In this document: one piece after another, positions 18,255-32,543 of the stretch
How positions within the stretch are numbered: the first letter of the stretch is position 1
Layout of the letters: each line of letters begins with the position of its first letter
Source: Synechococcus sp. CS-1332
GTDB taxonomy: Bacteria; Cyanobacteriota; Cyanobacteriia; PCC-6307; Cyanobiaceae
Assembly: GCF_025127995.1 (NCBI RefSeq)
Contig: NZ_JAHLYP010000014.1
Location: forward strand, 1-64,000
Length of the DNA: 64,000 bases
Direction of reading: 5' to 3'
Made by a program: the position numbers and the translations under genes
The notes under the pieces: generated by a model
Told to the model about the DNA's origin: nothing
Seen by the model: only the letters and a program-made list of their open reading frames with translations
Databases searched by the model: none

Positions 18255-19054
18255 TCGATCTCCGTTGCTCGACCCATCGGATCGGTGTGGCGGACCACCT
18301 CACCGCCTCGCAGCAACAAGGCCTCCCCGGGATCCAGGGGGATCCAGCGCTCATCGGTGGTCAGGGGTTCGGTGCTCACGATCGTCACCACGTCGTTGGG
18401 GCCGGCAAGCTTGGCGAAGTCGACGCTGAGGTCGTCGTCGGCGAGGGTGGCCCTGGCGAAGGGAGCCCTGCGGGTGATGCGGTGCAGCTTGGTGCTGGCG
18501 TAGGCAAAGAGCCAGCGGCCGTTGCTGATCAGGCCGTTGAAGATGCCGGTGGCGGCCAGTCGGCTGGAGGCGACCGCCAGGGCCTCGAACAGTCCGGCTT
18601 CATCCTCCGCATCAAGGCCAGCCCGCTCAAGCTCCCCGAGGATCCAGCAGAAGGCGGCCTCGCTGTCGGTGGAACCTTCCGGACGGAACACGGGCGTTTC
18701 CGGCAGTGGCCCTTCGAGGTGGCCGTTATGGGCGAACACCCACTCCTGGCCGTGCCAGCGGCGATGGAAGGGGTGGCAGTTCTGAAGGGCCACCACACCC
18801 TGGGTAGCCTTGCGGATGTGGGCGATCGAACAGTGGGCCTTGAGGTCGAGGGCCGCCACCTGGGCGGCGATCTTTGAGAAGGCCGCCGGGGCGTCCTCCC
18901 GGTACAGATACACGCCGCGGCCGTCGGGGTCGAAGCTGGCCACCCCCCAACCATCCCCATGGCAACCGGTGGCTCCGCCCCGGCGGGTGAGGCCATGGAA
19001 GGAGAAGCGCATGTCGGTGGGGGTGTTGGCGCTGAGGGCCAGCAGTTCGCACAT
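18251..19054 (-). CDS. Class II glutamine amidotransferase
   Basis: This 267-residue Ntn-hydrolase begins MCELLALSA, so Cys2 is the predicted nucleophile once Met1 is removed. The oxyanion and substrate-binding segments typical of the YafJ/EgtC-like group follow: GGATGCHGDGWGVA, IAHIRKAT and FAHNGHLEG. No synthase domain is attached, so the ammonia acceptor or the actual peptide substrate is unknown. It is translationally coupled to chrA by a 4-bp overlap. Confidence 0.85.
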   Translation of the reverse strand: MCELLALSANTPTDMRFSFHGLTRRGGATGCHGDGWGVASFDPDGRGVYLYREDAPAAFSKIAAQVAALDLKAHCSIAHIRKATQGVVALQNCHPFHRRWHGQEWVFAHNGHLEGPLPETPVFRPEGSTDSEAAFCWILGELERAGLDAEDEAGLFEALAVASSRLAATGIFNGLISNGRWLFAYASTKLHRITRRAPFARATLADDDLSVDFAKLAGPNDVVTIVSTEPLTTDERWIPLDPGEALLLRGGEVVRHTDPMGRATEIE

Positions 19055-19102
19055 CGTCTGGCAGCCACCGTCGCCACCATTGTCTTCGCAGGGGCGCCCG
19101 GA

Positions 19103-20215
19103 TCAGCGCGAGCTGCTGAACAGCTGGTCCCAGACCCCGTTCTTGCCGAAGAAGGTGGCGTTGATCTTGTCCCAGCCGCCGAAGTCGCTGGCCGAGAACA
19201 GTTGCTTCACGGGGGCGAAGCGGCCCTTCACCCGGCTCCAGACGCCGGGACTGACCGGGCGGAAGCCCTCCTCAGCGAAGATCTCCTGGGCCGGTTCGCT
19301 CTGCAGATAGGCGGCCAGGGCTTCGGCGGCCTTGCGGGTGCCTTTGCGGTCCACGTTGCGGTCGACGACGGTCACCGGGCCCTCGATGCGGATGTTCACC
19401 TCAGGCACGATGAAGGGCGCTTTGAGATCACCGGTCCGTTTCGCCAGGATCGCCTCGTTCTCGTAGTTGAGCAGCACGTCGCCCTGGCCGCGCTTGAGGA
19501 ACACATCGCTGGCCTCGCGGGCGTCCTTGGGCAGGTTGTCCACGTTGCGGTAGACGGAGCCCACGTAGGCCTTGGCCTGGGTTTCACTGCCCCCGGTCTG
19601 GCTGATCGAGCCCCAGAGGCCCAGGAAGTTCCAGCGGGCGCCGCCGGAGGTCTTGGGATTGGCCGTCACCACGGTGATGCCGGGCTTGGCCAGATCCGCC
19701 CAGGAGCGAACCCTGCGGGGATTGCCATCGCGGGTGACGAAGGCCACCACCGAGTGGGTGATGATCGAGCCGCCGGGCACGTCCTTCTCCCAGCCTGGCT
19801 GCACCAGGCCCGCCTCCTGGAGCTTGAGAACATCACCGGCCAGGGCCAGGGTGGCCACATCGGCATCGAGGCCGTCAATGATCGCCCGGGTCTGGGAACC
19901 GGAGCCGCCGTAGCTGGTCTTCACCGAGATCGCCTGGCCGGTTCGGGCCTTCCAGTCGGCTTCGAACGTGGGCAGGATCCGAGCGTAGGCCCCCTTGGTC
20001 ACGGCGTAGCTCACCAGCAGCAGCTCCTGGGGAGCACCGCCTGCACCGGCAGCGCCCTCGGGCCGGGGGCTGCAGCCCGTCAGGGCCAGTCCCCCCACCA
20101 GGACAGCGGTCAGGGCGAGGGGGGGGAGTTGCGCGGCCGAAGGGATGAACCACGGTTCTCTGATCGACAATCCGCCAGAGCCTACATCGGTCGCCTGATC
20201 GGCTTCATCACTCAC
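19103..20215 (-). CDS. Sulfate ABC transporter substrate-binding lipoprotein
   Basis: This is a sulfate/thiosulfate-binding protein of the Sbp/CysP family, 370 residues. The family anion-binding segments are present: LLVSYAVTKGAY, TSYGGSGSQTRAIIDGL, HSVVAFVTRDGNP and NPKTSGGARWNFLGLWG. A lipobox ALTGC follows a hydrophobic stretch, but about 25 residues precede it, so the true start may be the TTG at 20170. It lies directly downstream of a second, non-lipoprotein paralog on the same strand with a 36-bp gap, and the two are clearly homologous along their length. It may extend the ligand range or anchor sulfate capture to the membrane. Confidence 0.9.
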   Translation of the reverse strand: MSDEADQATDVGSGGLSIREPWFIPSAAQLPPLALTAVLVGGLALTGCSPRPEGAAGAGGAPQELLLVSYAVTKGAYARILPTFEADWKARTGQAISVKTSYGGSGSQTRAIIDGLDADVATLALAGDVLKLQEAGLVQPGWEKDVPGGSIITHSVVAFVTRDGNPRRVRSWADLAKPGITVVTANPKTSGGARWNFLGLWGSISQTGGSETQAKAYVGSVYRNVDNLPKDAREASDVFLKRGQGDVLLNYENEAILAKRTGDLKAPFIVPEVNIRIEGPVTVVDRNVDRKGTRKAAEALAAYLQSEPAQEIFAEEGFRPVSPGVWSRVKGRFAPVKQLFSASDFGGWDKINATFFGKNGVWDQLFSSSR

Positions 20216-20251
20216 CCCGTCGCGTGCGGGCTCGGGGTGAGCAGGCCGGCC

Positions 20252-21331
20252 TCAGCGGGATTTGGAGAAGATCGAATCCCAGAGCCCTCCTTTGCCGAAG
20301 AACCGCTTGTTGATGGTGTCCCAGCCGCCGAAGTCCTTGGCGGTGAACAGCTTCGAGACCGGAGCAAACCTCCCCTTGGTCTCGGCCCTCACCTTGGCGT
20401 TGATGGGGCGGAATCCTTCCTCGGCAAAGGTCCGCTGGGCTGGTTCGCTGTAAAGGTAACTGGCGAAGGCTTCCGCCACCTTGCGGGTTCCCTTGCGGTC
20501 CACGTTCTTGTCGACCACGGCAATCGGTCCCTCGATCAGGATGTTCGTGGTGGGCACGATGTAGGGGGTTTTCCAGGTGCCGCTCTTCCTGGCCAGGATC
20601 GCTTCGTTCTCATAGTTGAGCAGCACATCACCCTGGTTGCGTTTCACGAAGACGTCGGTCGCCTCCCGGGCATCCTTGGGCAGGGTTTCCACATTGCGAT
20701 AGACGTTCGTCACGAAAGCCCGTGCCTTGGCTTCATTGCCGCCGGTCTCGTTCACCGAGCCCCAGAGGCCCAGGAAGTTCCAGCGGGCGCCGCCGGAGGT
20801 CTTGGGATTGGCGGTGATCACCTCCACATTCTTGTTGTCGAGATCGTTCCAGGTGCGGATCTTCTTAGGGTTGCCCGGCCGCACGAAGAACGCCACCACC
20901 GAGTTGGTGATGATGCTGTTGTTGGGGTTCTCCTTCTCCCAGCCGGGACGGATCAGGCCCGCCTCCTGGAGCTTGAGGGTGTCGGCCGTCAGGGCCAGGC
21001 CCACCACATCCGCCGCCAGGCCGTCGATCACCGCCCGGGTCTGGGAGCCGGAGCCGCCGTAGCTGGTGCGGATGACGACGCTCTGACCGGTCCGCTTCTT
21101 CCAGTCGGCCGTGAATCGGGGAATGATCTTGTCGTAGGCCGCCTTGGTGACGGCGTAGGAGACCAGCAGCAGTTCCTGATTTTTCGCCGGTTGCTGGGCC
21201 TGGGCCTGCAGGGGCAGCAGGGTGCCGGAACCCCCCAGGGCGACGGCGACGGCCAGGGGGGCGGCCACCAGGCCGGGAAGCCACCGGCGGCGAGCGGCTG
21301 GGGTGGTCGGCGAGGAGAACGAACGAAGCAC
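20252..21331 (-). CDS. sbpA: Sulfate ABC transporter substrate-binding protein
   Basis: This periplasmic sulfate-binding protein is 359 residues with an ordinary Sec signal ending near PLQAQAQQ and no lipobox Cys. Conserved family segments are LLVSYAVTKAAYDK, RTSYGGSGSQTRAVIDGL, NSVVAFFVRPGNPKK and NPKTSGGARWNFLGLWG. It is the first gene of a tandem pair of sulfate-binding proteins. The divergent Rrf2 regulator starts 143 bp away and the shared gap should contain the control region. Confidence 0.92.
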   Translation of the reverse strand: MLRSFSSPTTPAARRRWLPGLVAAPLAVAVALGGSGTLLPLQAQAQQPAKNQELLLVSYAVTKAAYDKIIPRFTADWKKRTGQSVVIRTSYGGSGSQTRAVIDGLAADVVGLALTADTLKLQEAGLIRPGWEKENPNNSIITNSVVAFFVRPGNPKKIRTWNDLDNKNVEVITANPKTSGGARWNFLGLWGSVNETGGNEAKARAFVTNVYRNVETLPKDAREATDVFVKRNQGDVLLNYENEAILARKSGTWKTPYIVPTTNILIEGPIAVVDKNVDRKGTRKVAEAFASYLYSEPAQRTFAEEGFRPINAKVRAETKGRFAPVSKLFTAKDFGGWDTINKRFFGKGGLWDSIFSKSR

Positions 21332-21474
21332 GGTTATCCGATGGGTAAACTGTTGAAAACTATCCGGCGTTCCGACAGGTCGATGTAGGGCGGATTACAA
21401 CGGCATGGGCGTGGCAGGCGGCTTGGGCACGGACAGGGGCTGCCACAATCCCCGTAAGACAACCGTGGATTCCC

Positions 21475-24880: not shown

Positions 24881-25786
24881 ATGACCATCGTCGTCCCCAC
24901 CCTGGAGACCCCCAGGCCCACTCCCGAACCAGGGAAAAGGTCACGCCGCCGAGGCCTCGACCTGCCGGGGATCCTGATACCGCTGATCGCCTGCCTCTAT
25001 GTGGGGGTGGTGATCCTGCTGCCGGCCCTGAGTGTGGTGGTCTCGGCCTTCGCCAAGGGGGTGGGCCCCTTCCTGGAGAACTTCCGTTCCCCAGAACTGC
25101 TCTCGGCCCTGAGGCTCACCCTGTTCGCCACCGCCGTGGCCGTGCCCTGCAACGTCATCTTCGGGCTGGCTGCAGCCACCGCCATCGCCCGCCGTGAGTT
25201 TCGCGGCAAGGCGTTGCTGCTCAGCGTCATCGACCTGCCCTTCTCGATCTCGCCGGTGGTGGTGGGCCTGATGCTGGTGCTGCTCTACAGCCCCAACCAC
25301 GGGTTGCTGGGGGGTGTGGTGGACAGTCTGGGCTGGCGCATCATCTTCTCCTGGCCGGGAATCGTGCTGGCCACGATCATCGTCACTTTCCCGTTCATGG
25401 CCCGGGAGGTGATCCCGTTGCTGGAGGAGGAGGGCTGGGACCAGGAGGAGGCCGCCCGCACCCTCGGCGCCACGGACTGGCAGGTGTTCTGGAAGGTGAC
25501 GCTCCCCTCGGTGCGCTGGGCCGCCCTCTATGGCCTGATCCTCACCACCGCCAGGGCCCTGGGGGAATTCGGGGCCGTGGCGGTAGTCAGCGGCAACATC
25601 GAGGGCCAGACCCAGACCCTGCCACTGTTCGTGGAGGACGCCTACAAGAACTACCAGACCGAACTGGCCTTCGGCGCGGCGATGGTGCTGGGGGGTGTGG
25701 CGATCGTGTCGTTGCTGCTCAAGATCCTGGTGGAGCAGGTCCTGGAGCAGGACAAGAAGGCGAGCCGGATGGAGCAGGAGGGCTGA
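24881..25786 (+). CDS. cysW: Sulfate ABC transporter permease CysW
   Basis: This is the second sulfate permease, 301 residues with six helices. The family marks VIDLPFSISPVVVGLMLVLLY, the EAA loop EEAARTLGATDWQVFWKVTLPSV, and ARALGEFGAVAVVSGNI are present. The last residues after helix six are charged (QVLEQDKKASRM). It completes the CysA-CysT-CysW transporter served by the two binding proteins nearby. Sequence composition drops in GC immediately after its stop codon. Confidence 0.93.
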   Translation: MTIVVPTLETPRPTPEPGKRSRRRGLDLPGILIPLIACLYVGVVILLPALSVVVSAFAKGVGPFLENFRSPELLSALRLTLFATAVAVPCNVIFGLAAATAIARREFRGKALLLSVIDLPFSISPVVVGLMLVLLYSPNHGLLGGVVDSLGWRIIFSWPGIVLATIIVTFPFMAREVIPLLEEEGWDQEEAARTLGATDWQVFWKVTLPSVRWAALYGLILTTARALGEFGAVAVVSGNIEGQTQTLPLFVEDAYKNYQTELAFGAAMVLGGVAIVSLLLKILVEQVLEQDKKASRMEQEG

Positions 25787-25981
25787 GGCGTGTTCCTTTC
25801 GCCTGGCAGCACGAAATTCCAATCGCGACCGGTCGACGGATGGTATGCGATGAACATGGCATGAAATAGATCCTGCCTGCCACTCCTTTACTTTCAACCA
25901 GTCACCAATTTGCTTTCTCCGTCATCTCGAAGAACGGTCGCCATAATGATAGGCTGGTCATCCTCTTGATATGAGGCTGGT

Positions 25982-27001
25982 GTGGCCAAGGATGACATCA
26001 TTGACCTGATGAAGGGAAGGAGAATTCTGATCCATGTGGGCCTCCATAAAACGGCTTCAACATTTCTGCAGCAGAAAGTATTTCCCTCATTCACTCAGTA
26101 TGAATTTCTTGGCAAGTCGTACCTGGGCTACAACTCCGCGTTCAATCGCCTAATCTATGGGGACGACACCCTGTATCAGAGTTCAGAGATTCGCCAAGAG
26201 TTGAGGTTGATTTGCGATCGCATGGTGTCTACTGGCGCATCGGGTTTGATCCTTTCTGAGGAGGAGTTCTCCGGGCATCCCGAGTACAATTATATGAACC
26301 GGGGTACGGTGGCACGAAGACTGGCCGAGATTTTTCCAAACGCAGAAATTCTACTCGTCCTACGTGGCCAGCTGGATATGATCTGCTCTTTGTACAATCA
26401 GTTCGTGAAAGTGGGGCGTTTCACAGGACATCTGGATCGGAATTTCCTCCATTCTTCCCACGAAGGGATGACCTTGGCTGAATGGTTTGATGGTAAAAAT
26501 CCACACATCAGCGGTAGGTTTATCAATCATCAGTCTTTCATGATACCTGATCATTTCCGATACTCGGCCATCTATTCTTTCTATGCAAGTCTCTTCCCGA
26601 AGGTGCATGTCCTTCTTTTCGAGGAGCTCCAGGCAGCCCCGATGATCTTCATGGGCAAGCTTGCATCCATCCTTTCGGCTCCTCTCCCGGAATCGCTTCT
26701 TGCTCCCGTCATGTATCGAGAGCTTGTCAATGAAGGAGTATCATCTCGGCGACTCAACGCGCTTCTTCTCTACCATCGTCTGGTCCAGTTGGGTCTGCCC
26801 TTGCGCCAGGGAAGGAGATTGGACCGACTGATGCAGTTTCTGACAGGGTTCATGCCTGATCGAAGTGCAATGGGCCGCGAGTATGTTGCCAGGCAATTGC
26901 GTGATCGGGATGTCGTCGCCGATAATCAACGCTTGGATGACCTGCTTAGCCTTGGCATGGGCCGATTCTCCAAACAATATTTCGATTTGCCCTTCGGATG
27001 A
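25982..27001 (+). CDS. Sulfotransferase-like protein
   Basis: This is a 339-residue cytosolic protein with a P-loop-like 5'-phosphosulfate-binding motif near the N-terminus (HVGLHKTASTFLQQ), typical of PAPS-dependent carbohydrate sulfotransferases. A 3'-phosphate-binding-like segment may be LLVLRGQLDMICSLYNQFV, where Arg and Ser follow a beta strand. It would move sulfate from PAPS to a glycan hydroxyl. The GTG start at 25982 is tentative; MKGRRILIHVG at 26009 is an alternative. The DNA is clearly lower in GC than the cys genes, which suggests acquisition by transfer. It begins about 200 bp after cysW. Confidence 0.75.
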   Translation: MAKDDIIDLMKGRRILIHVGLHKTASTFLQQKVFPSFTQYEFLGKSYLGYNSAFNRLIYGDDTLYQSSEIRQELRLICDRMVSTGASGLILSEEEFSGHPEYNYMNRGTVARRLAEIFPNAEILLVLRGQLDMICSLYNQFVKVGRFTGHLDRNFLHSSHEGMTLAEWFDGKNPHISGRFINHQSFMIPDHFRYSAIYSFYASLFPKVHVLLFEELQAAPMIFMGKLASILSAPLPESLLAPVMYRELVNEGVSSRRLNALLLYHRLVQLGLPLRQGRRLDRLMQFLTGFMPDRSAMGREYVARQLRDRDVVADNQRLDDLLSLGMGRFSKQYFDLPFG

Positions 27002-27090
27002 ATAGAAGCGGGCTCTTTGGCAGGCATTCATCTCCGAAGTCTCGTCCAGGTCCAAGAGTCGTTGCCAATACGATCACAATCCCTTAAGCT

Positions 27091-27930
27091 TTGAAAAGGG
27101 AAGAGGTTTCCATCTTGGAATGGGAAGAGCTTCAGCGAGCTCCCGCCTTCTGCATCAATCTGGAGCGCCGTGACGATCGCCGTGAGGGGTTGCTCGATCG
27201 GCTCCGGGGCGCCGGCTTTGAGCAAGTTTCGATCTGGCCTGCGGTGGATGCCCAATCGGAGAATCTCGAAGCGCTCTTCGAGACCCACGGGCTGGGAACA
27301 CTGATCGATGTGGATCGATTTCCGGCCCGCCGTGGTTCCCAGGGGGCGTTGCTCTCCCATCTTGGTCTGCTGGCCCATGCCATCCAGCACGAGCTGCCAT
27401 TGGTCCATATCTTTGAGGATGATGTTGTCTTTCCTCCCATCTGGACAAGCCATGCAGAGGCGTTTTATCGCGCCACCCCAATGGATTGGGATGTCCTCTT
27501 TCTCGGCTCCCAGCTCCTTTACAAGCATCTGCCCACCCCAAGTCTTTTTCGCTTTCTCCAGCGACATCCTCGCCTGAAGTCAGCCTCCAGCCGAGTGATT
27601 TCTCGGCCAACGCAGCTGCTTCAGGACATCGTGCGCTGCCCCCTGTTCTGCACCCATGCTTACACCCTGACCCAGGCAGGCTGCCGCCTGTTGTATGGCT
27701 GGCTCACCAGCCAACCTGTGGTCTACGGGTATGACTACATGATCTGCGATGGCATGAGGAACTCCTCCCGTGTCAGCCCTTTGCCGCTGAAGTGGTACGC
27801 CTGGAACAGCCTGAGGTTGTTCCCCGATGAACCCTCCAGAGGTGTGGATCCAGCCATCACCCAGCGCAACCGGGGCCTGGTCTTTCAGTTGGAGGAGGAT
27901 GGGCCCCTCTGGGGGGGAGACAAGCTCTAG
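27091..27930 (+). CDS. Glycosyltransferase family 25 protein
   Basis: This 279-residue protein has the GT25 (LOS/LPS galactosyltransferase) layout: AFCINLERRDDRREGL at the start, GSQGALLSHLGLLAHAI, and the metal-binding HIFEDDVVFPP in the middle. GT25 enzymes usually add galactose or a related sugar to surface glycans. No ATG lies near the predicted N-terminus: TTG 27091 or TTG 27115 are the candidates. It overlaps the convergent glf gene by 4 bp at the 3' end and is part of the glycan island. Confidence 0.8.
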   Translation: MKREEVSILEWEELQRAPAFCINLERRDDRREGLLDRLRGAGFEQVSIWPAVDAQSENLEALFETHGLGTLIDVDRFPARRGSQGALLSHLGLLAHAIQHELPLVHIFEDDVVFPPIWTSHAEAFYRATPMDWDVLFLGSQLLYKHLPTPSLFRFLQRHPRLKSASSRVISRPTQLLQDIVRCPLFCTHAYTLTQAGCRLLYGWLTSQPVVYGYDYMICDGMRNSSRVSPLPLKWYAWNSLRLFPDEPSRGVDPAITQRNRGLVFQLEEDGPLWGGDKL

Positions 27931-29111
27931 GGCCTCAGGCGGCTGCCGGAGGCGACAAGTTGGCGGCGAAAGCCCTCGGGGAAGATGGGTCTGGGCTGGC
28001 CTGCGGCGATCGCGGTGATGAAGTCTCGAGCCAGGGAAAGGGATTCGGCGATCACCTGGTGCATGTCCATGTAGGTGTACAGACCCAGCCGGCCCATGAA
28101 ACTGGTGCGTTCAGTCTGCATGCAATCGCTCAGATAATCGTTCATCAAGGCCTTGTCTGCAGTGAGTCGTTTTGGGTAGTAGGGCTCATCCTCAAGCCCC
28201 GTTTCCTTGCTGTATTCGGTGAACACGATGCTCTTGTCGAATTGCTTCCAGTACTCGTAATGCTTGTGCTCTCTTCGGCGGGTGAAGCTGACATCCATCG
28301 AAGGAAAATTGATGCCTGGATGGCCCAGGACATCTCCGGTTTCGATGTGTTCTTCCCAGAACACTGTGCGATAGCCAAGCCGGCCCCTACGGTGACCATG
28401 GAAGCCATCGAGGGGGCCTGAATAGAAGACGTGGTCATAGGAGCGGCCATCGTCCGGTTGCCAGCGATGGTTGAGGGTCAGTGAGAGGCGTGGGTGATCG
28501 AGGAGGCGTTCGAAGATGGCTGTGTAGCCGCCTTTGGGAATGCCTTGATAGAGGGATGAATAGTAGTTGTCGTTGTAGTTGAAGCGCAGTGGCAGTCGTT
28601 TTAACACGGAGGCTGGAATCTCCCTTGGTTCGCACCCCCAGTGCTTTTTGGTGTAGCCATGGAAAAAGGCACGGTAGAGGTCTTCCCCCATGAAGTGCAG
28701 GGCCTGCTCTTCGAAGTTCTGAGGCTCAGTGATGTCCTGACGGCGGATCGCGTCGATGAATTGTCTGGCTTCTAACGGCGAAAACTTCTTGGCATAGAAT
28801 TGGTTGATGGTGTGCAGGTTCACGGGCAGACTGAAGATTCCCTTTTCGATGCTGGCCTTGGGCCTGTTGATGAAAGGCATCATTTCAGTGAACCGATGTA
28901 TGTACTTCCAGACATCAAGATTGCTGGTGTGAAAGATATGGGCTCCGTACCGATGAACAGTGACACCCGTTTCTGATTCTTTTTCCGTGTAGCAGTTGCC
29001 GCCGATGTGGTCTCTTGCTTCGACCACGTCAACATGGTGCTCGCTGTGATCAGCGATTTCCCTTGCCAGCACAGCGCCTGCAAAACCGGATCCAACCACA
29101 AGAAAGCGCAT
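27927..29111 (-). CDS. glf: UDP-galactopyranose mutase
   Basis: This flavoenzyme interconverts UDP-galactopyranose and UDP-galactofuranose, supplying galactofuranose for surface polysaccharide. It is 394 residues. The FAD motif VVGSGFAGAVLAREIA opens the protein, and RDHIGGNCYTEKE and HRYGAHIFHTSN are the next conserved blocks. YTKKHWGCEPREIPASVLKR and the late RLGLYTYMDMHQVI are also family hallmarks. The neighbouring glycosyltransferase may use the UDP-galactofuranose product (inference). Confidence 0.93.
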   Translation of the reverse strand: MRFLVVGSGFAGAVLAREIADHSEHHVDVVEARDHIGGNCYTEKESETGVTVHRYGAHIFHTSNLDVWKYIHRFTEMMPFINRPKASIEKGIFSLPVNLHTINQFYAKKFSPLEARQFIDAIRRQDITEPQNFEEQALHFMGEDLYRAFFHGYTKKHWGCEPREIPASVLKRLPLRFNYNDNYYSSLYQGIPKGGYTAIFERLLDHPRLSLTLNHRWQPDDGRSYDHVFYSGPLDGFHGHRRGRLGYRTVFWEEHIETGDVLGHPGINFPSMDVSFTRRREHKHYEYWKQFDKSIVFTEYSKETGLEDEPYYPKRLTADKALMNDYLSDCMQTERTSFMGRLGLYTYMDMHQVIAESLSLARDFITAIAAGQPRPIFPEGFRRQLVASGSRLRP

Positions 29112-29202
29112 GATCAGGATCAGAAGGAAAGCGGTGAGTGACGATGTTCAGGCTGAATGGTTGCTTTGATTCCCGTTTGATGGGTGAGCGAATCTAATTC
29201 CA

Positions 29203-29994
29203 TCAGAAAACGATCCACTCCGGCAATCTGGTTTCCACGAAATTTCTGTACTCCGACAGCGTGGTGACAGGTCGGATCTCAAGCGACTTGGAGGCCTTGT
29301 CGTAATGGCGGAAGCGCTTCAAAGTGCCATGGAAATACTGGTTGTCGGTGGAATCCATGTAGTCGATGGGATTTTCATCCTTGAGGCCGTGATAACGGAT
29401 TGTCCAGCAGAGATGACTCGGCAGGAAGGACTGGAATCGCATGTAGCCGAACTCGCAATGATTCCACTGGGTGATGTGCTTGTCGAGGCCGGTTCTGCCT
29501 TTTGGCGTCAGGATTCGATTCGTTCCGACCACATTGGCGGGATCCTCGTCGGTGAGCAGCAGCAGCTTGCCGAGGTCATGCAGCAGGGCCAGCAGCAGCA
29601 GATCATCGTCCAGAACGCCATCGCGGCGCATGGCCTCGATGACCTGCAGGCTGTGGGTCAACTGGCTGGCACAGCCCAGCAGATTGTCTGTGGGATCGAG
29701 GCATTCCCCCAGCATCTGAAACAGATCCATCGGGCGGACGCTGCCGAAAACGGGCGTCTGGTATCTGTCGTTCAACGCCTCCACATCGGCAATCGACTGC
29801 TGGTCGTGGGACTCCAGGATCTGCCGCTGAAGGGCCCGTTGCTCCTGTGCTGCACGGTGCTCGGGTGATCCGGGGGCATCGAGCTTCGTCAGCCCAAGAC
29901 CGACAACGGAGAGGCCCTTCTCAAGGCCCCGCCTGACCTGCCCTTTCAGCTTGGGCAGCAGGTGCGTCGGCAGCAGTGGAGGCGATTGGCTCAA
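29203..29994 (-). CDS. Myo-inositol oxygenase-like diiron protein (HD-domain fold)
   Basis: This is a 263-residue protein. Aligning by eye with myo-inositol oxygenase, all six diiron ligands appear in order: His114 (QLTHSL), His139-Asp140 with Lys143 (LLHDLGK), His179 (QWNHCEFGYM), His202 (TIRYHGL) and Asp232 (RHYDKAS). The first spacing, 25 residues, equals that of the mammalian enzyme (His98 to His123); the next is shorter. It could oxidise an inositol or another polyol/sugar to an uronic acid. The location among galactofuranose, GT25 and sulfotransferase genes favours a surface-glycan role. HD phosphohydrolase activity is the alternative. Confidence 0.75.
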   Translation of the reverse strand: MSQSPPLLPTHLLPKLKGQVRRGLEKGLSVVGLGLTKLDAPGSPEHRAAQEQRALQRQILESHDQQSIADVEALNDRYQTPVFGSVRPMDLFQMLGECLDPTDNLLGCASQLTHSLQVIEAMRRDGVLDDDLLLLALLHDLGKLLLLTDEDPANVVGTNRILTPKGRTGLDKHITQWNHCEFGYMRFQSFLPSHLCWTIRYHGLKDENPIDYMDSTDNQYFHGTLKRFRHYDKASKSLEIRPVTTLSEYRNFVETRLPEWIVF

Positions 29995-30019
29995 GGCTTC
30001 TGCTCAAACCACAGGTTGT

Positions 30020-30946
30020 TCAGTTTATCGAGGTTCGGTTCTCCGGTTCTCGGGTTGTCCGGCTCTCCGAGCAGCCCCCGGGCGGTTCGATCTGGATCGT
30101 GCTGTGGGTGATGCCCAGGTCGGCCAGCCGTTGCTGGGCCAGCTGCAGCAGTTCCCCATCCTCTCCGCCAGCGGGAGCGCGGCCCAGGTGGGCCGTCAGG
30201 GCGGTCCGGGAGGTGCTCATGCCCCAGACATGCAGATGGTGCACGTTCTCCACGCCGGGCAGGCTGCGCAGGGCCGCCTCCACCTCGGCCAGGTTGATGT
30301 CCCGTGGCACGGCGTCGAGGGAGGCACTGAGGGCCTCACCCAGCAGCTCCCAGCCGCTCCAGGCCACGGCCAGCCCCACGCCGATGGCGGTGGCGGCATC
30401 CAGCCACATCCAGCCCACCAGCCCCACCAGCACGGCGCTGACCAGGACCGCGGCCGAGACGGCGGCATCGGTGAGCAGGTGCACCACCGCCGCCCGCCGG
30501 TTCAGATCGTGGTGGTGACCGCTGCCGAACAGGCGGGCCGACAGCAGGTTCACCACGATCCCGGCCGCCGCCGCCCAGGCCACCGGGCCGCTCACCACCG
30601 GCACCGGATCGAACAGACGCTGCACCCCCTCCACGATCACTACTCCGGCCGCCATCAGGATCAGGGCCGCGTTCATCAACGAGGCCAGCTGGGTGCTGCG
30701 TCCGAAGCCGTAGGTGAAGCGGGCCGTGGCCGGCCGGGCGCTGAGCCGTTCGGCCCCCCAGCCGAACAGCAGCCCGGCCACGTCACCAAGGTTGTGAATG
30801 GCATCGCCGATCAGGGCCAGGGAGCCGAAGCCGATGCCGATCGCCAGCTGCAGACCCGAGAGGCCGCTGTTGAGCAACACCCCCCAGAAGAAGGCCCTGG
30901 GTGCGCCCCGCTGGTGATCGTGCGGGGAGTGGGAATGGGTCGCCAT
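30020..30946 (-). CDS. Cation diffusion facilitator (Zn2+/Co2+ efflux type)
   Basis: This is a 308-residue CDF family antiporter that exports divalent metal in exchange for protons. Six membrane helices are visible. The metal site motifs are DAIHNLGD in helix 2 and HLLTDAA in helix 5, both HxxxD, which is the Zn-type pattern. The N-terminus is His-rich (THSHSPHDHQRG) and the C-terminal cytosolic domain has the CDF fold with HHLHVWGMS. It is a single gene; the next upstream gene starts beyond 31194 on the same strand. Confidence 0.9.
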   Translation of the reverse strand: MATHSHSPHDHQRGAPRAFFWGVLLNSGLSGLQLAIGIGFGSLALIGDAIHNLGDVAGLLFGWGAERLSARPATARFTYGFGRSTQLASLMNAALILMAAGVVIVEGVQRLFDPVPVVSGPVAWAAAAGIVVNLLSARLFGSGHHHDLNRRAAVVHLLTDAAVSAAVLVSAVLVGLVGWMWLDAATAIGVGLAVAWSGWELLGEALSASLDAVPRDINLAEVEAALRSLPGVENVHHLHVWGMSTSRTALTAHLGRAPAGGEDGELLQLAQQRLADLGITHSTIQIEPPGGCSESRTTREPENRTSIN

Positions 30947-31194: not shown

Positions 31195-31310
31195 CTCCCA
31201 GCACCGGTTGTGGTTCCCTTCAGTCTGTTGGTGCTTCGGTGCCTCGAAGGAACAGGACCGAAACGATTCCCCTCGCCGCTGCCGGGCCCTTCGCGTCTGA
31301 TCTCCGTTCC

Positions 31311-32543
31311 ATGGCTCATCACCAGATCCTGATCGTCGGCGGAGGGGCAGCGGGCCTCACCGTGGCCAGCCAGCTCAAGCGGGCGCGGCCGGGCCTGGAG
31401 ATCGCCATCCTCGAGCCCTCGCCCGACCACTACTACCAACCGGGCTGGACCCTGGTGGGCGCTGGTGTCTTCACCCTGGAGCAGACGCGCCGCTCTGAGG
31501 CTGATCTGATTCCCGAGGGGGTGCGCTGGATCCGCGCCGCCGCCGCCGGTTTCGATCCGGTGGCCGGCACCGTGGCCTGCTCCGATGGCGAAACGCTCCA
31601 CTACGACGTGCTCGTGGTGGCCACCGGCATCCAACTCTGCTGGGACCGGATCAAGGGTCTGCCGGAGGCCCTCGGCAGCCATGGCATCACCAGCAACTAT
31701 TCCAAGGATCTGGTCGATTACACCTGGAAGACGATCCAGTCCTTTTCAGGCGGCAACGCGATCTTCACCTTCCCTGACACGCCGATCAAGTGCGCCGGGG
31801 CGCCCCAGAAGATCATGTACCTGGCCGACGACGTCTTCAAGCGTTCGCCAGCGGTGGCCGCGGCGACCAAGGTGATCTACGCCACGGCCACACCGGGGAT
31901 CTTCGCCATTCCCACCTTCGCCGAGCCCCTGCGCCAGGTGGTGGCCCGCCGCGGCATCGAGCCCCGCTACCAGCACACCCTCAAGGAGGTCCGCGCCGCC
32001 AGCAAGGAGGCGGTCTTCGCCGTCAAGGACGGGGACACGGTGCGCGAAGAGGTGCTCCCCTTCGGGATGCTGCATGTCACCCCGCCGATGGCGGCCCCGG
32101 AGGTGGTGGCCTCCAGCCCCCTGGCGGTGGCCGGACCGGGCGGCTGGGTGGAGGTGGACAAGTTCACCACCCAGCACGTGCGCCATCCCAACGTCTTCTC
32201 CCTGGGCGACGTCTCCTCGCTGCCCAACTCCAAGACCGCCGCCGCGGTTCGGGGCCAGGCCCCGGTGCTGGTGGCCAACCTGCTGGCCCACCTCGATGGC
32301 CAGCCCTTGGCCGCCCGCTACGACGGCTACGCCTGCTGTCCGCTGATCACCGGCTACGGGCGCGTGATCATGGCCGAGTTCAACTACGAGGGGCAGCCCG
32401 TTCCCTCCTTCCCCCTCGACCCCACCCAGGAGCGCTGGAGCATGTGGGTGGTGAAGAAGGACGTGCTGCCCTGGATCTACTGGAACCGCATGCTCAAGGG
32501 AGCCCCCCACGAGCGGCGCTTCATGCCTGGGGTGGCTGGCTGA
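31311..32543 (+). CDS. sqr: Sulfide:quinone oxidoreductase, type II
   Basis: This membrane-associated flavoprotein (410 residues from ATG 31311) oxidises sulfide and reduces quinone. FAD-binding motif ILIVGGGAAGLTVASQL; the substrate-site Cys161 lies in PIKCAGAPQKIMYLADD, and a second Cys pair is in YACCPLITGYG. FSLGDVSSLPNSKTAAAVRGQ is the C-terminal FAD motif. Type II enzymes lack one of the three Cys of type I and mainly detoxify sulfide. The C-terminus (VVKKDVLPWIYWNRMLKG) is the amphipathic membrane anchor. Its presence suggests the cell meets sulfide. The 3' end overlaps the convergent cNMP-domain gene by 23 bp. Confidence 0.9.
   Translation: MAHHQILIVGGGAAGLTVASQLKRARPGLEIAILEPSPDHYYQPGWTLVGAGVFTLEQTRRSEADLIPEGVRWIRAAAAGFDPVAGTVACSDGETLHYDVLVVATGIQLCWDRIKGLPEALGSHGITSNYSKDLVDYTWKTIQSFSGGNAIFTFPDTPIKCAGAPQKIMYLADDVFKRSPAVAAATKVIYATATPGIFAIPTFAEPLRQVVARRGIEPRYQHTLKEVRAASKEAVFAVKDGDTVREEVLPFGMLHVTPPMAAPEVVASSPLAVAGPGGWVEVDKFTTQHVRHPNVFSLGDVSSLPNSKTAAAVRGQAPVLVANLLAHLDGQPLAARYDGYACCPLITGYGRVIMAEFNYEGQPVPSFPLDPTQERWSMWVVKKDVLPWIYWNRMLKGAPHERRFMPGVAG

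Follow-up and report, generated by a model that had tools for sequence, protein, structure and literature searches.

What could an enzyme related to myo-inositol oxygenase (MIOX) be doing in a freshwater cyanobacterium, in a cassette that also holds genes for a UDP-galactopyranose mutase (UGM) and a glycosyltransferase? The question is raised by MIOXL, a gene in a stretch of 64,000 nucleotides from Synechococcus sp. CS-1332 (contig NZ_JAHLYP010000014.1; the whole stretch analysed is called the window below). The original prediction, made from the letters of the window, saw in its product a bacterial myo-inositol-oxygenase-like protein that may oxidise a sugar or polyol of the envelope. The analysis presented here leads us to favor, on balance, the explanation that MIOXL is a diiron oxygenase working in the galactofuranose (Galf) branch of surface-glycan synthesis. 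The relevant features are listed in Table 1.

Table 1. Features of the MIOXL cassette, its flanks and two other genes of the window
Feature	Position	Strand	Remarks
MIOXL, MIOX-like diiron oxygenase (predicted)	29203..29994	(-)	263 aa, TTG start; PF05153, fold, ligands
glf2, second, cassette-specific UGM	27927..29111	(-)	394 aa; bacterial Klebsiella-type
GT25-family glycosyltransferase	27091..27930	(+)	Pfam; in all six carriers
Sulfotransferase-like ORF	25982..27001	(+)	seen in this genome only
Stretch between cysW and CDF gene	25787..30019	(.)	the two abut in 10 genomes of the genus that lack the cassette; GC contrast
cysW, cassette flank	24881-25786	(+)	
CDF gene, cassette flank	30020-30946	(-)	
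Sulfide:quinone reductase-like (SQR) gene	31239-32543	(+)	
Protein with two-fold internal repeat	18959-21388	(+)	809 aa

Family, fold and active site of MIOXL

The family named in the original prediction is borne out by a Pfam profile match of MIOXL to PF05153, the MIOX family (56.6 bits against a cut-off of 25, E 3.9e-15), and by its fold. Comparison of a predicted structure with MIOX had been proposed as a check; an AlphaFold2 model built on a nine-row alignment (pLDDT 86.6) adopts the MIOX fold, with Z 24.6 and rmsd 2.8 over 213 residues to the mouse enzyme (2huo, about 20% identity) and Z 22.8 to the human one (2ibn). The phosphonate oxygenases PhnZ (Z 11.5 and below) and TmpB (Z 10.7) come next, and the remaining matches among the 50 listed reach Z 7.5 at most. 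The sole NCBIfam match at E 0.001 or lower is to Phn-HD (TIGR03276), at 20.1 bits with a cut-off of 214.6, and a weak Pfam match to HDOD also lies under its cut-off. Phmmer matches to designed pentatricopeptide repeats were set aside as the sum of many weak repeats. We also dropped a candidate conserved amphipathic helix at the N-terminus: among six proteins, only the segments from genome G714 and from the window exceed shuffles (p 0.0 and 0.043, respectively; 0.19-0.95 in the other four).

Residue conservation was read from an alignment of 11 MIOXL rows, a degenerate twelfth copy (genome G002) being left out. The diiron ligands H114, H139, D140, H179, H202 and D232 are invariant in all 11, and profile alignment with mouse and human MIOX confirms that the six ligands and K143 follow the mammalian order, as had been claimed. 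The first ligand spacing, said to be identical, is 25 residues, the same as in mouse MIOX; in one full-length cyanobacterial MIOX the spacing is 24. From the HD motif to the third His, MIOXL has 40 residues as against 70 in one full-length cyanobacterial MIOX. Invariant in all 11 rows, too, are the residues of two lid pairs, D100/K143 and D103/K236 (a comparison of residues only, not of distances); in the profile alignment D100, D103, K143 and K236 fall on mouse D85, D88, K127 and K257. In mouse MIOX, lid salt bridges over the inositol are described for D85/K127, D88/K257 and a third pair, D92/R39 (PMC2584100); the comparison covered the first two, and both have counterparts in MIOXL. The original prediction was silent on K236 and on D100 and D103.

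Other pocket positions are more variable. At position 158 (mouse D142) the 11 rows have T, M, L or R, and at position 203 (mouse S221) they have G, S or N; N159 is N in 10 of them. Mouse D142 and S221 belong to the inositol pocket, and D142 has a role in inositol binding. Since the ligands and lid residues are invariant and positions 158 and 203 vary, the alignment indicates that the iron site and lid of MIOXL are kept and that part of the pocket is altered. Three residues before the first His, all 11 rows have Gln (Q111) rather than the conserved Arg that HD-domain phosphohydrolases typically carry there (PMC8177086), and the phosphohydrolase alternative, which the original prediction had set against its own reading, loses support accordingly. 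The YxxE substrate loop that precedes the first His in PhnZ and TmpB (PMC8177086, section 1.4) is absent as well, there being no Tyr in MIOXL residues 85-113. We consider it very probable that MIOXL is a MIOX-type oxygenase: a shortened relative of a known kind of enzyme, in a genomic context that apparently has not been reported.

The cassette and its distribution in Cyanobium

The UGM and the GT25 glycosyltransferase named as neighbors of MIOXL in the original prediction are both upheld by Pfam matches. The UGM gene, glf2, lies 91 nt downstream of MIOXL on the same strand. Its product matches PF03275 at 192 bits (cut-off 26.3) and the structure 3gf4 at 2.2e-126, stays just under the TIGR00031 cut-off (285.1 bits; 303.75) and, in an alignment judged by eye, keeps 8 of 8 active-site residues of the Klebsiella UGM, R174 and R280 among them. 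The GT25 gene is convergent with glf2, their 3' ends overlapping by 4 nt, which rules out one operon for all three cyanobacterial genes. Gene order is identical in all six carriers of the cassette. MIOXL starts 25 nt past the stop codon of the CDF gene, and read-through into it from CDF is possible. The sulfotransferase, which had been counted as part of the same glycan island, fared less well: the ORF matches PF13469 below threshold only (E 0.0052, 17.5 bits, cut-off 27), the stretches fetched around the five other cassettes show no copy of it, and it does not belong to the conserved core of the cassette.

MIOXL is present in six of 42 genomes of the genus (Cyanobium). Five were found by a PF05153 search over all 42; the sixth, G002, whose degenerate copy this search missed, came from a protein search over 37, and a family-wide search returned the same six carriers among 380 genomes. 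One relative of the window's MIOXL is 79% identical to it. The co-occurrence with glf that the original prediction had proposed to examine across genomes turned out, within the genus, to be exact for a second glf. Two glf genes are found only in the six MIOXL carriers; of the other 36 genomes, 24 have one glf and 12 none. A GT25 orthologous to that of the window (75-79% identity in the other carriers) is likewise limited to the same six, the best elsewhere in the genus reaching 50%. The chance of six matching six among 42 would be 1.9e-7 for independent genomes, which these are not. As a separate observation, six genus genomes (G030, G036, G342, G004, G018 and G001) have a single, lower-scoring glf (E about 1e-54) that replaces the common type (about 1e-74 to 1e-85).

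The six cyanobacterial copies occupy one common site and are not independent. We examined 30 CDF loci, among 50 places listed: six have the cassette, 10 have cysW against the CDF gene (in G340 only a cysW fragment), and 14 lie in other surroundings and are uninformative. Thus, cysW abuts CDF in 10 of 10 comparable loci without the cassette. Beyond GT25, G002 has a different flank and G011 shows no cysW on the fetched contig. The GC content is 0.59 for GT25, 0.545 for glf2, 0.587 for MIOXL and 0.50 for the sulfotransferase-like ORF, against 0.666 over the whole window; two relatives show a weaker contrast (cassette 0.58-0.67, two flanking genes 0.68-0.70). A tree built from the CDF and SQR flank proteins of 16 genomes, which like the MIOXL tree has many weak forks, calls for four gains or losses of the cassette, two of them forced by well-supported branches, and the cassette is no more clustered on it than in shuffles (as low in 117 of 500). 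Given these repeated gains or losses and the lack of clustering, the three genes appear to be gained or lost as one. In G002 (L008/L025), MIOXL has lost a 12-residue segment bearing the HD motif and has N at D232, and glf2 and GT25 are kept beside it; these two genes can hence persist without an intact MIOXL.

Homologues in Actinobacteria and elsewhere

One scan of genome contigs gave homologues in three actinobacterial MAGs, G343 (L011), G344 (L012) and G345 (L013). Searches at class and order level added G499 (296 genomes) as well as G714 and G672 (397 genomes); a phylum search (396 genomes) added none, the query's own genome G343 being the only carrier. The actinobacterial counts are lower bounds, since in many genomes only the best few candidates were scored; the sampling was small and several subjects were MAGs. 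Of the 296 genomes, 33 had matches; in 30 these were weak only (1e-5 to 1e-3), and we discarded them, together with a second weak match in G344 (6.2e-4), as generic HD matches. No MIOXL relative was found among 68 pattern matches in viral contigs, and one query against plasmids gave no match.

A UGM or UGM-like gene lies directly downstream of MIOXL, on the same strand, at 10 of the 12 MIOXL loci: six are of the bacterial type, three of the eukaryotic type and one is divergent. In G343, G344 and G345 the next same-strand gene encodes a UGM of the Trypanosoma/Aspergillus (eukaryotic) type. The L011 protein matches the T. cruzi UGM (4dsg) at 7.3e-145, the G344 and G345 proteins were typed by similarity to it, and the three are mutually 60-76% identical; in NCBIfam, the UGM of the G343 unit matches PRK07208 models only, below cut-offs. 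Bacterial and eukaryotic UGM classes are known distant homologues, and BLAST between the glf2-type and the eukaryotic-type proteins aligned 38 residues (E 0.003). In G714, MIOXL is followed by a flavoprotein gene and then by a GT2 gene (PF00535, 71.1 bits), relatives of which come after the UGM in G343 (44%) and G344 (42%); the G345 contig ends inside the UGM gene, so that a downstream GT2 is unreadable there. The G714 flavoprotein is divergent (Aspergillus UGM at 3.4e-12; 25-26% identity where it aligns) and shows no counterpart of the C-terminal motif found in the other two eukaryotic-type UGMs compared, which makes its mutase activity appear doubtful.

The fetched stretches around MIOXL in G499 and G672 hold no UGM match. 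Membrane proteins adjoin MIOXL in both, with no meaningful Pfam or NCBIfam match and no match to each other; lacking a family match, and with a single-sequence model of the G672 protein at pLDDT 43.2, they are not claimed here as glycosyltransferases. The G672 gene (L097:9483-10316 (-)), next to a polytopic membrane protein, lies near gyrase-like genes (named by eye) and has no UGM neighbor. Its product starts with a twin-arginine-like stretch, which would fit export. A PGA_cap capsule-synthesis-family gene and a polysaccharide pyruvyl transferase gene are found near actinobacterial units (L011:5873-7147 (-) and L092:3621-4415 (+)), the latter about 6 kb from the MIOXL unit in L092.

A search of 292 cyanobacterial genomes gave full-length MIOX in two, which belong to the same genus; three weak PF05153 matches were dropped. 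In a tree with many weak forks the full-length MIOX lies a very long branch away from MIOXL, and the 19.9 kb around one such gene (G177, L134), a control of one, contain no UGM match.

A probable role in galactofuranose metabolism

The link to an envelope sugar proposed in the original prediction has become firmer, the co-occurrence with glf and GT25 and the UGM neighbors pointing to Galf; the oxidation itself is something we infer. Two very distant UGM classes stand beside one oxygenase, and this leads us to favor Galf as the substrate. That one class has been replaced by the other beside the same oxygenase in two phyla suggests, moreover, that the furanose itself matters. MIOXL thus probably acts in the Galf pathway. 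One could picture the following sequence. UGM, as its conserved active site suggests, would turn UDP-Galp into UDP-Galf, and a dedicated transferase, GT25 in Cyanobium and GT2 in Acidimicrobiia, would attach Galf to the glycan. Under a MIOX-type lid, MIOXL would bind a vicinal diol of Galf at a mixed-valent Fe(II)/Fe(III) pair and, if it resembles MIOX, PhnZ and TmpB in this respect, would carry out a four-electron oxidation with O2 and without external reductant.

The most natural target would be the exocyclic C5-C6 diol, which is present in galactofuranose and absent from galactopyranose; removal of C6 from galactofuranose leads to the L-arabinofuranose (L-Araf) series. In HD oxygenases one iron binds the substrate, and O2 activated at the second iron serves to break a C-C or C-P bond (PMC8177086, section 1.4). 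Combining this chemistry with the exocyclic diol and the product series, we tentatively suggest, as a possibility worth entertaining, that MIOXL cleaves the C5-C6 diol, on the glycan or on UDP-Galf, to yield an L-arabinofuranuronate-type residue. After such a cut the residue, 162 Da before, would be an L-arabinofuranuronic acid of 146 Da or its 5-aldehyde of 130 Da, and formaldehyde or formate would be set free.

Several observations count against the Galf explanation: the G499 and G672 loci without UGM, the divergent flavoprotein of G714, the degenerate MIOXL of G002, the position of GT25 on the opposite strand and the rarity of MIOXL in the actinobacterial phylum. The two loci that show no UGM would suit an enzyme that oxidises some other polyol or sugar of the same glycan (e.g. 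glycerol, a sugar acid or an inositol-containing lipid) while UGM makes a different unit, and so would the association with glycan assembly in general, as represented by GT25, GT2 and the pyruvyl transferase of L092. We think this rather unlikely, since UGM is the closest and most constant partner of MIOXL and comes in two very distant forms.

The presence of two such forms is also hard to call incidental, as it would have to be if MIOXL were an ordinary myo-inositol oxygenase (EC 1.13.99.1) making glucuronate from inositol and perhaps feeding UDP-glucuronate into the glycan. Although family, fold and lid residues are as in MIOX, about 30 residues are missing between the HD motif and the third His relative to one full-length cyanobacterial MIOX, itself so long a branch away, and the position of mouse D142, involved in inositol binding, is altered; an ordinary MIOX therefore strikes us as improbable. 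An HD-domain phosphohydrolase or a non-catalytic remnant, to which membership of the HD superfamily, the loss of the HD motif in G002 and the sub-threshold HDOD match might be taken to point, is very hard to reconcile with the six oxygenase ligands, none of which varies in the 11 rows, with the absence of the phosphatase Arg and with a Z to MIOX about twice that to PhnZ and, among the 50 matches listed, over threefold that to the best HD hydrolase.

The Galf explanation places MIOXL between known systems. Fold, six diiron ligands and the counterparts of lid pairs D85/K127 and D88/K257 are common to it and to MIOX (2huo, 2ibn); low identity, the shorter stretch before the third His, the changed D142 position and gene neighbors that, unlike those of MIOX, are UGM and glycosyltransferase genes set it apart. 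PhnZ and TmpB share the HD diiron scaffold with its H...HD...H...H...D ligands (PMC8177086, section 1.4), from which MIOXL differs by the lower Z scores, the Phn-HD score far under its cut-off and the missing YxxE loop. Galactofuranose gene clusters likewise have glf/UGM beside a glycosyltransferase, and the cassette adds a MIOX-like oxygenase as a third member; no link of such an oxygenase with UGM or galactofuranose clusters was found in the titles and abstract openings searched. To our knowledge, no HD-domain oxygenase has been known in glycan biosynthesis, and MIOXL would be the first if the 5,6-diol reaction is real. If so, there would be an oxidative route from D-Galf to the L-Araf series. 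The HD-domain oxygenases listed in a review of 2020 are MIOX, PhnZ and TmpB, and it considers further ones likely (PMC8177086); if another such enzyme serves galactofuranose, C-C cleavage by diiron centres would reach surface glycans as well. Because the cassette is compact, with three genes, occurs in a free-living cyanobacterial genus and has a natural HD-less carrier for comparison, the question is directly testable.

Other features of the window

The best NCBIfam match of the SQR-like protein is to selenoprotein type III SQR, at 229.5 bits, below the cut-off of 525. The 809-aa protein has no Pfam match and contains a two-fold internal repeat (about residues 45-379 and 432-722), both copies of which match the same stretch in relatives.
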